NCBI GenBank assembly: GCA_019116965.1 | Contig: DXAT01000021.1 | Location: 1 to 64,000 of the forward strand | From: Candidatus Coprenecus pullistercoris | GTDB lineage: Bacteria; Bacteroidota; Bacteroidia; Bacteroidales; UBA932 | Length of the DNA: 64,000 nucleotides | Direction: 5' to 3' | In this document: positions 32,635 to 43,317 of the stretch, piece after piece | Position numbering within the stretch: position 1 is the stretch's first letter | Layout of the letters: each line of letters opens with the position of its first letter | The notes under the pieces: generated by a model | What the model was told of the DNA's origin: nothing | Seen by the model: only the letters and a program-made list of their open reading frames with translations | The model's database searches: none | Translations under genes and position numbers: made by a program

Positions 32635-33096
32635 TTATCGATTGCGTATAAGATTTCTTAAGCTGCCCCAAATCAAGGCGAGAATAGCGATTACGACCAG
32701 TGCGTAGCTCAGGTTGAGCAGGGTATCGGTCATCTTGAGAGTTGCGTCGGTAGGCTGCACGGCCATATTGACGGCAATGGGATCTCCGCTGGCCAGCAGG
32801 TAAGATGCTCCCACGAGTACGATGGCTATGACGAGAGTGACAGCCGTCCTCTTGAGGGATCTCTTGTTGCCGGCTATGTTTACCAGAGACAGGATGACAA
32901 CGAGAACCAGTGCTGCGATAACAAGAGCATAGGCCCAGAAGAGCACCATGTCAAGCAGTCCGGTCGTTGCAAGTGCCTCTGCCTCGTTGGCGACAGTGTA
33001 GAGTCCGGTCTTCGAGTTGAAGATGAAGAACGCTACCAGGCCCACCAGCGAGACTACCAGCAGGATTATTTCTAATACTTTTGCGAATTTTGACAT
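32635..33096 (-). CDS. four-helix membrane protein of the exb operon, unknown function
   Basis: A 153-residue protein with four predicted membrane segments (about 7-27, 50-72, 83-102 and 126-146) and a basic C-terminus. I do not recognise a named family. It sits between exbB and two exbD genes, 2 bases after exbB and 6 bases before exbD, a position that argues for a structural or regulatory part in the same motor. Confidence 0.75.
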   Translation of the reverse strand: MSKFAKVLEIILLVVSLVGLVAFFIFNSKTGLYTVANEAEALATTGLLDMVLFWAYALVIAALVLVVILSLVNIAGNKRSLKRTAVTLVIAIVLVGASYLLASGDPIAVNMAVQPTDATLKMTDTLLNLSYALVVIAILALIWGSLRNLIRNR

Positions 33097-37002: not shown

Positions 37003-37009
37003 GTACGGG

Positions 37010-37017
37010 CAAAGATA
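37010..37017 (-). promoter_or_regulatory. -7 promoter box of dprA-tatD-ansA (TATCTTTG)
   Basis: TATCTTTG on the minus strand, with seven bases between its G and the A of the ATG. Since transcription usually begins four to six bases after this box, the leader would be at most a few bases. Confidence 0.6.
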
Positions 37018-37035
37018 GCCTTCCTGGAATACAGA

Positions 37036-37061
37036 ATCCCGGAAGTATGAGAATCCGGGAT
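37036..37061 (-). other. inverted repeat between the anti-sigma-like gene and dprA
   Basis: ATCCCGG and CCGGGAT are separated by 12 bases. There is no T-run on the dprA side; a second AT-rich palindrome (AAAAACATGTTTTT) lies at about 37062-37077. It may end the galE/sigma/anti-sigma transcript or bind a regulator upstream of dprA. Confidence 0.45.
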
Positions 37062-37085
37062 GAAAAACATGTTTTTAAAAAAATG

Positions 37086-37505
37086 TCAGAGTTTAAAATC
37101 CTCTCCGTATTTCTCCTTGTAGTAGGCCGAGTCGGCTTTGTCGAATGTGTCGACCGACAGTATGTTGTCCTTGTTCTCCATCCCCGGATTAAGACTGTGC
37201 TCCACGATACCGCTCCTGTCGCGGACGGATCGTGCCGTGAGGAATCCGATACCGGCCACTATGATTACGGCTGCGGCCGCCTTTGTCCAGCCGGAGCGCA
37301 GTACGCGGAACAATACTCCGGGCCGCCTCTGTCCGCTGTCGTCGCTCATGGCACCACGCAGTTTCCTCAGCGCCTCGAGCCTTGCCGAGCACTCGGGACA
37401 GGAACACAGGTGTTCCTGCACGGCGGTCTCCTCTTCTCTCGGAAGGCAGTTGAGGAAGTACTTCGCCAGTGTGTCCGTGTCTATATGGTCCGTATGCCTG
37501 TTCAT
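37086..37505 (-). CDS. putative zinc-finger anti-sigma factor, membrane-anchored
   Basis: A 139-residue protein, starting at the ATG overlapping the stop of the sigma-like gene (ATGA); the longer in-frame ORF lies inside that gene. Residues about 12-50 form a zf-HC2-like domain with H32-x3-C36-x2-C39 (QEHLCSCPECSARLE). A membrane segment lies at about 75-91 and a 48-residue tail outside follows. This is the layout of ECF anti-sigma factors of the ZAS class: a cytoplasmic zinc domain holding the sigma factor and a periplasmic sensing part. The partner would be the upstream protein. Confidence 0.75.
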   Translation of the reverse strand: MNRHTDHIDTDTLAKYFLNCLPREEETAVQEHLCSCPECSARLEALRKLRGAMSDDSGQRRPGVLFRVLRSGWTKAAAAVIIVAGIGFLTARSVRDRSGIVEHSLNPGMENKDNILSVDTFDKADSAYYKEKYGEDFKL

Positions 37506-38668
37506 CTGTACTGTTCGGTCATCTTGTTGAATCTGTCCCAAAGACTTTTCTTGAGCCGCTTGATCTCCTGACGGAGCCTCGCGCACTGCCGGGCGGCTTC
37601 CTTCCCCTCCCTGATACCGTAGTGCCGTGCGACAATCTCCTCATAGGACAGTCCGTCAATATAGTGCTCAAACATCCTTTCAACCTTGTCCTCGTATCCT
37701 TTTATCAGCCCGTCGTGCAGCGGATGCTCCTTGTTGTAAAGGATGACAATGAAGTATCCCTGGACGGAGTCTTTGTCAGTGAAGTCAATATAAGTGCTCA
37801 GGTCCGCATTTTGTGACGGAAAATTCGAGGGGGAAGTGACAGGATTGTTGAAATATTTCTCCTCGTCATCCTCGGTAAGCCTGTACTGGAGAGTGTCTAT
37901 GTCTGCCGGAGTCCTGGCCTTTAGCCGCAGAAGCTCCTTGTTTTTGTTCTTGAGCACGCCTACGGAGTAGGATATGACGGCCTTGGCGTCCACCGGTTCC
38001 TTCAGCCTGCGGTCGACCACGGCCCTGTTGACCGACATGCAGGTGTCGCTCCAGATGTCGTGCGTGTTGCTGTCTCCGCTTATGCCGGAAATCTGGTAAC
38101 AGACAGCGGCTGTGACAGGTCTGAGCTTTATGTAGAATTTTTCCCAATAGAGGCGCTCGTTGTCCTGCATCCTGCGGATAATTTCCTTTTCCTCCTCCGG
38201 AAATCTTTCCTTGGCGATGCCGAGGCATGCGGATTCCATTGCTGACGGGGACTCGAAGGGAATCCGCGGAGCAAGGCTCCTTGAATAGATGTCCTCGAAA
38301 AGACTGTCCGGCATGGCATAGGAGACCGTATCGTTGTCAGGGGCCAGGTATCTGTCCGTAAGGGTGCGTTCAGCAGTTGCGGAAACGGCTTTCAGACACA
38401 TTCTGAAGAGCCGGAGTACGGCTTCCTTGAACTCGGAGCCACCGGCATGACTGCCGCAGAATGTCTTGAATCCCCTGTCCCTGTAGTATCCGCTGAGACA
38501 GCGTGTCTTCCATTCGGAAAAAGTCTCTCCGTCCGCACGGGGGAACTTCGAGGCAAGCCGTGCCGACTCCAGTGACACATCCTGGATGAATCCCATTCGT
38601 GTCAGGCGGTAACGCTCGTCTTCCTTTGTGAGCAGTTCGAGGGCTGCTTTTTCTGTGCGGCTTTTCAT
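37502..38668 (-). CDS. sigma-70-like protein with a large N-terminal extension
   Basis: A 388-residue protein I cannot place in a named family. The ATG at 38668 avoids overlap with galE. The C-terminal half is sigma-like: a region-2-like stretch (about 170-250: RLYWEKFYIKLRPVTAAV, DIWSDTCMSVNRAVVDRRL, YSVGVLKNKNKELLRL) and a region-4-like HTH (about 325-380: MFEHYIDGLSYEEIVARHYG, AARQCARLRQEIKRLKKSL). About 165 residues precede it with no recognised domain, although it has two Cys (57, 71) and His74. ECF sigma factors are usually 170-200 residues, so this is twice the length. It is coupled to a ZAS-type anti-sigma-like gene and lies 13 bases after galE. Confidence 0.65.
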   Translation of the reverse strand: MKSRTEKAALELLTKEDERYRLTRMGFIQDVSLESARLASKFPRADGETFSEWKTRCLSGYYRDRGFKTFCGSHAGGSEFKEAVLRLFRMCLKAVSATAERTLTDRYLAPDNDTVSYAMPDSLFEDIYSRSLAPRIPFESPSAMESACLGIAKERFPEEEKEIIRRMQDNERLYWEKFYIKLRPVTAAVCYQISGISGDSNTHDIWSDTCMSVNRAVVDRRLKEPVDAKAVISYSVGVLKNKNKELLRLKARTPADIDTLQYRLTEDDEEKYFNNPVTSPSNFPSQNADLSTYIDFTDKDSVQGYFIVILYNKEHPLHDGLIKGYEDKVERMFEHYIDGLSYEEIVARHYGIREGKEAARQCARLRQEIKRLKKSLWDRFNKMTEQYR

Positions 38669-38681
38669 TGTGGATACGGGA

Positions 38682-39722
38682 CTATCGTATGCCCCTGACT
38701 TTCTTTTCCCAGGCCCAGGCGGAGCGGAGAACATCGTCTATCGGGGTGTCGGCCTTCCATCCTAATATCCGGTTGGCTTTCCGTGGGTCGGCCCAGACCT
38801 TTATGATGTCTCCGGCCCTGCGGGGTGCAAAGCTGTAGGGCAGGCTTACGCCGGTTGCGGATATGAAGTGGTTGACCAGCTGCAGGACGGAGAGTCCGGT
38901 GCCGGTTCCCAAATTGAATATCGCGTATCTGTCGGAGCCGTCGGTCCGGAGCATCCTGTCCACGGCCGCCACATGGGCCTTGGCCAGGTCGCATACATAG
39001 ATGTAGTCGCGGATGCAGGTGCCGTCCGGAGTAGGGTAGTCGTTGCCGAATATCTTGAGCTCCTTGCGGATGCCGGCGGCTGTCTGCGTGATGTACGGCA
39101 CAAGGTTCTGGGGTACGCCGACGGGCATTTCTCCGATGAGAGCCGAGGGATGGGCGCCTATGGGGTTGAAATATCTGAGTGCGGTCACCCTGAGTGAGGG
39201 ATAGGCCGTGACGCAGTCGCGGAGTATGTCCTCGCACATCTGCTTGGTGCGTCCGTAAGGTGATGTCGCCGGTTTTACAGGTGCGTTTTCGCTTATAGGA
39301 AGATTCTCGGGGTCAGGCTCTCCGTAGACCGTGCATGATGATGAGAACACGATGCCTCTTTCCCTGCCGTCCTTGACGGACAGTTCGGTAAGACAGAGCA
39401 GGGACCGGAGGTTGTTCTCGAAATACTTTATTGGCTGCTGCACGCTCTCTCCGACGGCCTTGTATGCCGCGAAATGTATGGATGCGGCGATGTCCGGATA
39501 CTGCTCGAATACCTTTGCGAACTGCTCCCTGTCGCTGCAGTCCAGCTGCATGAACGGGATCTTCCTGTCGGTGATTTTTTCCACGCCTTTCAGCATGTCG
39601 GGGGATGAATTGGAAAAATTGTCAACTCCTATTACTTCATAGCCCGCGTTTACGAGCTCGACTACAGTGTGTGAGCCGATGTATCCGGCCGCTCCGGTGA
39701 CGAGAACTCTGCCTTTTTCCAT
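38682..39722 (-). CDS. galE: UDP-glucose 4-epimerase
   Basis: A 346-residue short-chain dehydrogenase-type epimerase interconverting UDP-glucose and UDP-galactose (possibly also the GlcNAc/GalNAc pair). The ATG at 39722 is used because the in-frame TTG at 39746 overlaps the promoter -7 box. Seen: NAD-binding GAAGYIGSHTV, FSSSCTVYGEP, catalytic YGRTK and the late YAIFNLGTGTGLSVLQLV. It supplies envelope sugars and heads the transcript of the sigma-like and anti-sigma-like genes. Confidence 0.96.
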   Translation of the reverse strand: MEKGRVLVTGAAGYIGSHTVVELVNAGYEVIGVDNFSNSSPDMLKGVEKITDRKIPFMQLDCSDREQFAKVFEQYPDIAASIHFAAYKAVGESVQQPIKYFENNLRSLLCLTELSVKDGRERGIVFSSSCTVYGEPDPENLPISENAPVKPATSPYGRTKQMCEDILRDCVTAYPSLRVTALRYFNPIGAHPSALIGEMPVGVPQNLVPYITQTAAGIRKELKIFGNDYPTPDGTCIRDYIYVCDLAKAHVAAVDRMLRTDGSDRYAIFNLGTGTGLSVLQLVNHFISATGVSLPYSFAPRRAGDIIKVWADPRKANRILGWKADTPIDDVLRSAWAWEKKVRGIR

Positions 39723-39735
39723 TTTTAATGAGAAT

Positions 39736-39770
39736 TTTGTCTGCAAATATATTCATTTTTTCTAATTTTG
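39736..39770 (+). promoter_or_regulatory. promoter of rpiB-truB-queA
   Basis: TTTG at 39736-39739 and TAATTTTG at 39763-39770, 23 bases apart (slightly long). Predicted leader is about 22 bases to the ATG at 39797. It overlaps the galE -7 box on the other strand. Confidence 0.6.
39744..39751 (-). promoter_or_regulatory. -7 promoter box of galE (TATATTTG)
   Basis: TATATTTG on the minus strand; predicted start near 39739, leader about 17 bases. No TTTG is seen at the usual distance. It overlaps the rpiB promoter. Confidence 0.6.
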
Positions 39771-40981: not shown

Positions 40982-42100
40982 ATGAAACTTTCGCAATTTA
41001 ATTTCGACATAGACATCAGGAAGGATATAGCACCTTATCCTGCTGAATACAGGGACGAGTCCAGGATGCTGGTACTGCACCGCTCCACCGGAGACATAGA
41101 GCACAAGATATTCAAGGACATCATCAACTACTGCGACGAAGGGGATGTGTTCGTGTTCAACGACACGAAGGTATTCCCTGCGAGACTTAAGGGAAACAAG
41201 GAGAAGACGGGGGCCGAGATTGTGGTGTTCCTTCTCAGGGAACTGAACAGGGACCAGCGGCTTTGGGATGTACTTGTGGATCCCGCGCGGAAGATAAGAA
41301 TAGGCAACAAGCTGTATTTCGGAGAGAACGACTCACTTGTAGCGGAAGTTATAGACAATACCACATCCCGCGGAAGGACACTGCGCTTTCTGTTTGACGG
41401 TCCTTACGACGAGTTCAAGTCCACCTTGTACTCGATGGGTGAGATTCCCGTGCCGGAATATGTGTACATAGCCAGGCAGGCACAGAGAGAGAGGGACGGT
41501 CTTCCTTCAGTGAAGCCCACAGGCCCCTATATCTATTCGGAGCCTTTTGACGCTGACCGTTTTCAGACCATATATGCGGCTCATGAGGGCGCTGTGGCTT
41601 CTCCGGCAGCCGGTCTTCATTTCAGCAGGGAGGTATTCAAGCGTATGGAGATCAAAGGAGTGGAGGCGAGGTTCATCACCCTGCACATGGGACTCGGACA
41701 CTTCCGCAGCGTGGATGTCGAGGACCTGTCCAAGCACAAGATAGACTCGGAGAGGGTCATCATTTCCGAGGAGACGGCAGATGCCGTCAACAATGCCAGG
41801 AATTCCGGTCACAAGGTGATTGCCGTGGGCGCTACGGTGGTGCGCGCAATAGAGACTCCGGTGACCACTACCAGACAGCTCAAGCCTTTTGACGGGTGGA
41901 CCAACAAGTTCATATTCCCTCCGTATCAGTTCTCGATACCTGACGCGATAGTCACCAACTTCCATCTGCCCAACTCTACCATGCTGATGTCAGCTGCGTC
42001 GTTCGGAGGTTATGAGAATGTGATGAGAGCATACCGTGTAGCCCTGAAGGAGGGCTACAAGTTCGGTATGTACGGGGACGCCATGCTTATTGTGGATTAG
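40982..42100 (+). CDS. queA: S-adenosylmethionine:tRNA ribosyltransferase-isomerase
   Basis: A 372-residue QueA, which transfers the ribosyl group of SAM to preQ1 in tRNA to make epoxyqueuosine. Seen are [57 protein letters not shown] and the C-terminal [18 protein letters not shown]. Slightly longer than the 350 usual, with an insert of Bacteroidota type around [15 protein letters not shown]. Its stop codon overlaps the ftsZ stop by four bases on the opposite strand, with no terminator between. Confidence 0.97.
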
Positions 42101-43317
42101 GCTTTCTCTTTTCTGAGCCTTTCTCTTCTGGCCAGGGCGGTCTCGTTCTGGAGGTCGGAGATACTGCAACCGGGCTCATAGTAGAATATATCGTCGGTAT
42201 CCAGTTCCCTCAGGTTCTCATCCAGGCTGTCCGTGCATCCGGGAGAGAGGGATATGGAGTTGTCCTCGTATATGTTTCCGTCCACCTCGACGATGTCTCC
42301 GTCCTCTGAGGACATCATGATGCTGGGTGGCGGAGTGTTGTTGATCTTGAATCCGGTGGCCAGGACGGTCACGCATATCTCTCCGTCCTCAAGGCGGTTG
42401 TCTATGCCGAGTCCTTTCTTCTTCATGGTGATGCCGTTGCCGGTGAAGTCCTTGATGTAGTCGTTGATGACCGCAATCTCCTGCATCTTCAGGGAGGTGG
42501 TGCGGCTGTATGTGATGTTGACCAGTATCTTTTTGGCCGTATGCAGGTCGAATTCTTTCAGAAGAGGGGAAGTGAAGGCTCTCTCCACGGCTTCGACAGC
42601 CCTGTTGTCCCCGCTTGCCAGTCCCGTACCGACAAGGGCCATTCCGCTGTTGCGCATTACGGTCTTCACATCCTGCAGGTCGACATTCATGTATCCGGGC
42701 TTGGTGATGATCTCCGAGATGCCGCGGACAGTGGTGTCGAGCACATTGTCGGCCTTTTCCAGGGCTGACTGCACATCCATGTCTCCGTAGATGTCGTACA
42801 TCTTCTGGTTGTCCACGATGATGATGGAGTCCGTGTATTTGCGTATCTCCTCGATGCCCTCGTATGCTCTTTTCATGAAATCGGGGCTGTCCTGCTCCGG
42901 ATAAGTGAGGACTGCGATTGTCAGCTTGCCGGCCTCATGGGCTATCTGTGCTATGACGGGGGCCGCACCGGTGCCGGTACCTCCTCCCATACCTGCGGTG
43001 ATGAACACCACCTGTATGTGGTCACCGATGGATGCTTTCAGCTGTTCCATTGCCTCGATGGCCGCATTGCGTCCTATGACCGGATCCATGCCGGCTCCGC
43101 CGCCTTTGGTCTGATTGGTGTAGAGGATGATTTTCTCGGGTACGGGAGACAGGTTGAGCGCGTCTATATCCGTGTTGCAGACCATGAACTCCACATTCTG
43201 TATGCCTTCGTTGTAGAGTCTGCTGGCGGCGTTGCATCCGCCTCCTCCTACTCCTATGATTTTGATTGTAGCCCTGTTCTCGGTGAGTCCGTCGGGCATG
43301 AGTGAAAAGTCTGTCAT
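42097..43317 (-). CDS. ftsZ: cell division protein FtsZ
   Basis: A 406-residue tubulin-like GTPase forming the cytokinetic ring. Seen: [13 protein letters not shown], the GTP signature [20 protein letters not shown]-equivalent stretches and T7-loop [21 protein letters not shown]. The core ends near residue 330. The tail is acidic ([20 protein letters not shown]) and ends in [18 protein letters not shown], lacking an obvious Pro-containing FtsA-binding peptide such as xPAFLRR. It is last in the division cluster and starts 18 bases after ftsA. Confidence 0.98.

Follow-up and report, generated by a model that had tools for sequence, protein, structure and literature searches.

Among the described systems closest to the locus reported here are SigW/RsiW and RpoE/RseA, in which a group 4 ECF sigma factor is paired with a class I anti-sigma factor. 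Class I anti-sigmas bind sigma-4 through helix 1 and sigma-2 through helix 4, and they accompany only 6% of the ECFs in Bacteroidetes (PMC7406223). N-terminal ECF extensions have been reported from Planctomycetes, without mechanistic information (PMC8103513), and ECFs with extensions have been described as being without an anti-sigma, for which the extension substitutes in the described cases (PMC8999054).

Looking at the window (the whole stretch of 64,000 nucleotides that was analysed, from a 1.97 Mb Bacteroidales metagenome assembly, G000), we found a two-gene locus that compares with both sets. Like SigW/RsiW and RpoE/RseA, it encodes a protein with sigma-2-like and sigma-4-like parts that match SigW and sigmaE in structure and, as with RsiW, a translationally coupled membrane anti-sigma-like protein carrying the motif Hx3Cx2C. 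In contrast to these systems, the 388-aa sigma-like protein (P0001) is too diverged for Pfam and is twice the usual ECF length because of a 160-residue N-terminal domain. The ECF core lying behind an N-terminal extension is shared with the Planctomycetes proteins of former groups ECF87-89 and with ECF36; however, the ECF36 extension contains membrane helices, whereas that of P0001 has no membrane segment, the top 19-residue mean hydropathy in the protein being 0.87. The separate ZAS anti-sigma sets the locus apart from the extended ECFs as their descriptions have them (PMC8999054, PMC8103513). We consider it likely that the pair is a transmembrane signalling module, in which a divergent ECF-like sigma factor with an N-terminal extension is matched by a cognate class I membrane ZAS anti-sigma. 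The features of the locus are as follows.

38682..39722, minus strand: galE (Pfam Epimerase), 14 nt upstream of the sigma-like gene and probably co-transcribed with the pair.
37502..38668, minus strand: complete gene for the 388-aa extended ECF-like sigma factor (congeneric orthologues, selection).
37086..37505, minus strand: gene for the 139-aa membrane anti-sigma-like protein (zf-HC2, Hx3Cx2C, one hydrophobic span).
37003..37085, minus strand: inverted repeat, a putative intrinsic terminator, between the gene of the anti-sigma and dprA (by eye, congener alignment).

On the minus strand the order is thus galE, a 14-nt gap, the sigma-like gene, the ZAS gene, the terminator-like repeat, dprA, tatD and asnA, and the TGA of the 388-aa gene shares an ATGA with the start ATG of the ZAS gene. 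The initial annotation had given the protein 388 residues, a stop overlapping the next start and a place after galE, and the coordinates, the strand, the ATGA and the 14-nt gap agree with it. The congeneric orthologues are 385-389 aa long, which supports the ATG at 38668 as the start of the frame. The gene was found in 16 of the 18 congeners sampled (Candidatus Coprenecus and kin), one copy being split over two contig ends; the two assemblies without it (G005 and G008) are 81 and 87% complete. Wherever the flanks were read in congeners, the genes around the pair came in one and the same order. Among congeners, dN/dS was about 0.0-0.23 for the N-terminal half and about 0.0-0.13 for the sigma half, with some dS values saturated, and these ratios indicate that purifying selection acts on both halves. 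Given its presence in 16 of 18 congeners and a dN/dS well below 1, the gene is therefore real rather than a chance frame, and it includes the N-terminal half.

We then considered the C-terminal half of P0001, in which parts like sigma regions 2 and 4 had been claimed.

37901..38191, minus strand: sigma region 2-like domain, residues 160-256 (hhalign 97%, E 1.2e-10; VIA Z 7.9 to SigW).
37508..37792, minus strand: sigma region 4-like domain, residues 293-387, containing a helix-turn-helix (VIA Z 6.0 to sigmaE region 4).

Against a region 2 profile made from 11 ECFs, hhalign gave residues 158-256 a probability of 97% over 87 columns (E 1.2e-10). In profile comparison, residues 158-388 matched the ECFs of the same genome with an E-value of 9.4e-7, and the corresponding value for the whole family was 1.4e-6. 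The profile search upheld region 2; region 4 was aligned within the 158-388 match but, taken by itself, had a weak score (13%). Pfam gave no match whatever to P0001, recognising neither sigma domain; in the rest of the family, TIGR02937 (sigma70-ECF) matched 6 of 19 members (best E 2e-6), and Sigma70_r4_2 reached an E-value of 4.9e-4, below cut-off, in the relative L058. Both claimed parts found structural counterparts. In the AF2 full-length model, which is of middling confidence (pLDDT 67.5, pTM 0.52), VIA superposed SigW region 2 over 92 residues (Z 7.9, 3.1 A) and E. coli sigmaE region 4 on −35 DNA (2h27_A) over 71 residues (Z 6.0, 3.9 A). Almost without exception, the top matches of this model in Foldseek and VIA were sigma factors; since the Foldseek E-values were 0.12 and above, not significant alone, we take the structure as supportive and the profile evidence as the stronger. 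Residues 257-298, between the two domains, are modelled at low confidence and are short for a sigma-3 domain.

ECF regions 2.3-2.4 follow the pattern F-R-x-[WY]-[LI]-x2-I-x2-N-x3-[DE]-x2-R, which maps to residues 231-248 of P0001. In every aligned member the aromatic site of region 2.3 holds the same residue (Y234) and site 248 carries a basic one; N241 and E245 are retained except in the subgroup L059-L065. These data bear on the idea of a decoy of the PhyR type, in which the 388-aa protein would mimic a sigma factor, titrating the anti-sigma without directing transcription itself. Degenerate sigma-like domains in such a role exist (PhyR, PMC8103513), and the silence of Pfam on both domains would fit one; however, both the region 2.3/2.4 positions and the helix of sigma-4 are conserved and under purifying selection, P0001 lacks a receiver domain, and in Coprenecus the pair has no other sigma gene next to it. 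We thus hold a decoy to be very unlikely.

The partner had been described as a ZAS-domain protein with a single membrane span, and this description proved accurate. Its 139 residues match zf-HC2 with 23.2 bits against a Pfam cut-off of 22.2 (E 7.2e-5), and NCBIfam anti-sigma models with E-values of 5e-8 and weaker, below cut-off. The motif Hx3Cx2C (H32-x3-C36-x2-C39) lies within the N-terminal domain and is followed, after the ZAS domain, by a single hydrophobic segment at about 76-94 in the hydropathy profile; the predicted topology is one membrane span with a short periplasmic tail, a span behind the ZAS domain being common, though not universal, in class I anti-sigmas. The motif is invariant in all partners aligned in true reading frame, and the hydrophobic span is present in the partners aligned. 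Moreover, the Coprenecus anti-sigmas and those of a second Bacteroidales family (f105, see below) are homologous (99.3%, E 2.5e-20), and both genes therefore recur together across two families. Altogether, the sigma-2 profile match, zf-HC2 and this joint recurrence bear out the earlier reading of a sigma factor with a membrane ZAS anti-sigma, and by analogy the class I binding mode may well apply to the pair.

We next turn to the part that makes P0001 twice the usual length.

38189..38668, minus strand: N-terminal extension, residues 1-160, a helical domain (AF2, invariant residues, conserved start motif).

The initial annotation could assign this stretch to nothing known, and neither could we: it found no convincing match in Pfam, PHROGs, NCBIfam or PDB sequences. 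Predicted alone, residues 1-168 formed a separate, confidently modelled, all-helical domain (pLDDT 83.5, pTM 0.71); the AF2 alignments were made of window and related-locus sequences, with the more diverse second-family relatives left out. A fold search with this model gave nothing convincing, the lowest Foldseek E-values being 1.6 (PDB) and 1.4 (BFVD). The best VIA match, to a Cas1 chain (Z 5.3), covered residues 1-66 only and was set aside as noise for an all-helical model. A missing fold match of a predicted structure does not prove a new fold. The domain opens with a conserved motif, ExxxKExExxxLxxxG (E11-x3-K15-E16-x-E18-x3-L22-x3-G26), and ten positions are invariant across the two families (E11, K15, E16, E18, L22, G26, Y62, F70, D105 and P157). 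With a mean identity of 0.64, compared with 0.74-0.79 for the sigma half, the extension evolves faster. A search for stand-alone copies found the domain only fused to this sigma factor.

Most likely, the N-terminal domain has an accessory role and either descends from sigma-2 or packs against it; it would add a second contact or control. A more specific proposal, which refines this explanation and does not exclude it, is that the extension is, at least in part, a degenerate second sigma region 2, making P0001 a tandem-sigma-2 ECF whose extra copy docks the anti-sigma or blocks RNA polymerase in cis. Residues 121-155 align to ECF regions 2.2-2.4 with a score of 22.8, whereas the maximum was 18.0 in 200 column shuffles and 17.4 in 36 windows taken from unrelated neighbour proteins, although the absolute significance is low (11% probability, E 0.0026). 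As helical periodicity is lost when columns are shuffled and the set of natural windows is small, this match is a lead, not a proof. VIA placed model residues 62-166 on SigW 2-95 in the same register (Z 2.8), but at 6.4 A rmsd this is within noise for helical proteins, and residues 1-66, left uncovered, have a separate likeness to sigma-28 region 2 (Z 4.3) that would call for a different register. A genuine tandem sigma-2 protein occurs in the same class (L046; N-terminal copy 94.5%, E 8e-8), whereas the N-terminus of another extended ECF (L075) gave no match. Taken together, these data make a duplicated sigma-2 a tentative possibility, somewhat short of an even chance.

The extension might instead be a cytosolic ligand or protein sensor, so that the sigma factor would have two inputs, one from the membrane via ZAS and one from the cytosol via its own domain. 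ECF extensions often act as sensors (PMC8999054), and a distinct, confidently predicted, always fused domain that evolves faster than the sigma half is what such a reading would expect; on the other hand, it matched no known sensor fold, was found in no stand-alone copy and shows no evident ligand motif. We regard a sensor, which the initial annotation had also put forward, as doubtful, the weak evidence available favouring a diverged sigma-2 copy instead.

The two proteins named in this comparison deserve a description. L046 1297-2145, plus strand (the same as L066 8389-9237), encodes a 282-aa sigma factor of another family with a genuine second sigma-2 in front, and a membrane anti-sigma-like protein is encoded next. 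It is like P0001 in having an extra domain before the canonical sigma-2 and then a membrane anti-sigma-like protein; it differs in that its extra copy is clearly sigma-2, that of P0001 being only suggestively so, and in that its partner has no evident ZAS motif. L075 1312-2178, minus strand, encodes a 288-aa ECF that has about 100 additional residues at its N-terminus and is accompanied by a ZAS membrane protein of its own (L075 531-1289); it looks like a tandem sigma-2 protein by eye, and the absence of a match refers to a single-sequence hhalign of its N-terminus.

A sugar-responsive system had also been suggested, which would be coupled to the galE gene upstream, and a search for a promoter motif shared by galE and other targets had been named as a check. 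Upstream of galE we found one candidate element.

39735..39765 (approximate place), minus strand: TATATTTG element, housekeeping-type promoter candidate of the operon (congener alignment).

The housekeeping −7 box of Bacteroidetes is TAnnTTTG. The TATATTTG element, conserved in the aligned congeners except L041, fits this box and is thus a putative housekeeping promoter. A search for a shared or autoregulatory promoter yielded nothing upstream of galE but this housekeeping-like box, the regions upstream of the second-family sigma genes had no motif in common, and in neither place was a sigma-specific promoter motif or a target gene identified. The 14-nt spacing and the synteny of galE with the pair across the congeners read would suit a sugar response; however, the locus L036 carries the pair without galE, and the second-family loci read do not adjoin galE. 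Because the element upstream of galE looks housekeeping and L036 has the pair alone, the sugar link is unsupported, and we consider it highly improbable.

Profile searches of samples of the order, class and phylum found relatives of full length nowhere but in the genus, L036 and a single further family (f105), most of the sampled genomes having none. In f105, 9 of 60 genomes gave a match, one of them weak and partial, at 19-23% identity to the window protein. Three weak profile matches in other genomes (L073, L074 and L076) turned out to be ordinary short ECFs and not extended relatives, and neither the plasmid collection (tblastn with the L061 homologue) nor viral contigs contained any relative. 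In all nine f105 loci read (L039, L058-L065) the gene of a ZAS membrane protein comes next. Downstream of it, L061 has a run encoding a small lipoprotein-like protein, a DUF4384 protein, an outer-membrane-like protein and a CARDB-plus-caspase protein, and L062, L064 and L065 are alike by sequence; in L058 and L039 the run consists of DUF4384, a secreted protein without assignment and a caspase (C14). L063 has different neighbours and L060 stops at a contig edge. In L060 (9-3994) the neighbours of the pair look, by eye, like relaxase/mobilisation genes, and here the module may therefore be mobile. As the second-family module mostly heads runs of secreted and outer-membrane genes that include a caspase-fold (C14) protein, its ancestral output was probably at the cell surface. 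The Coprenecus module adjoins no DUF4384, outer-membrane-like or caspase genes. No DUF4384 gene was found in the G000 genome, and the second-family context is therefore not directly transferable to it; the two caspases of this genome both lie away from the module, one with its own ECF.

Caspase-fold genes were also seen in other settings. In G000 itself (contig C67; L070 240-4882, minus strand) an operon-like run encodes a caspase (C14), a 215-aa ECF sigma factor, a membrane anti-sigma-like protein and a CHAT-domain protein, two protease-fold proteins thus flanking one sigma factor. L069 3332-5338, minus strand, encodes a protein of 668 residues that combines WG repeats with a C14 caspase domain; small lipoprotein-like and outer-membrane-like genes lie upstream of it.

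For the module itself, the mechanism that we propose is the following. In the resting state, the cytoplasmic ZAS helices would clamp sigma-2 and sigma-4, and the clamped sigma factor would be held at the membrane, away from RNA polymerase. An envelope signal would reach the short periplasmic tail of the anti-sigma, proteolysis of the anti-sigma would probably follow, and the freed sigma factor would then transcribe its regulon. We infer binding, membrane release, use of RNA polymerase, a regulon and a signal for this pair, whose gene structure, domain homology, conserved motifs, co-occurrence and purifying selection are observed. A bolder version makes P0001 a doubly controlled ECF, in which the N-terminal domain, a descendant of an extra sigma-2, would be a second switch beside ZAS and the module would govern Bacteroidales surface operons with caspase-fold proteins; taken as a whole we think this unlikely.

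The initial annotation had suggested that the system could be of a kind not described before. This goes too far, the pair being a variant of ECF/anti-sigma signalling and not a new system type, although the architecture is indeed unusual: with extended ECFs described as being without an anti-sigma (PMC8999054) and class I anti-sigmas beside only 6% of Bacteroidetes ECFs (PMC7406223), the extension-plus-ZAS combination is an unusual variant. As far as can be seen, the pair works as an ECF/anti-sigma pair. The comparison covers the open-access literature, and the family may already carry an ECF group number, which is the main limit on its novelty. The locus brings an extension and an anti-sigma together in a small two-gene module that is conserved genus-wide and recurs in another family, and the contribution of the extension to a normal anti-sigma switch is therefore directly testable. 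In the second family, the recurring link with DUF4384 and caspase-fold genes suggests a regulatory input to the caspase-like proteins of bacteria.

Two further observations were made in the window. FtsZ (42097-43317, minus strand) is unusually fast-evolving, with 46-72% identity among congeners compared with 73-93% for the neighbours queA, rpiB and galE. A small membrane protein encoded beside exbB (32635-33093, minus strand) matches DctQ above the Pfam cut-off (E 6.9e-7), an odd name in this context.
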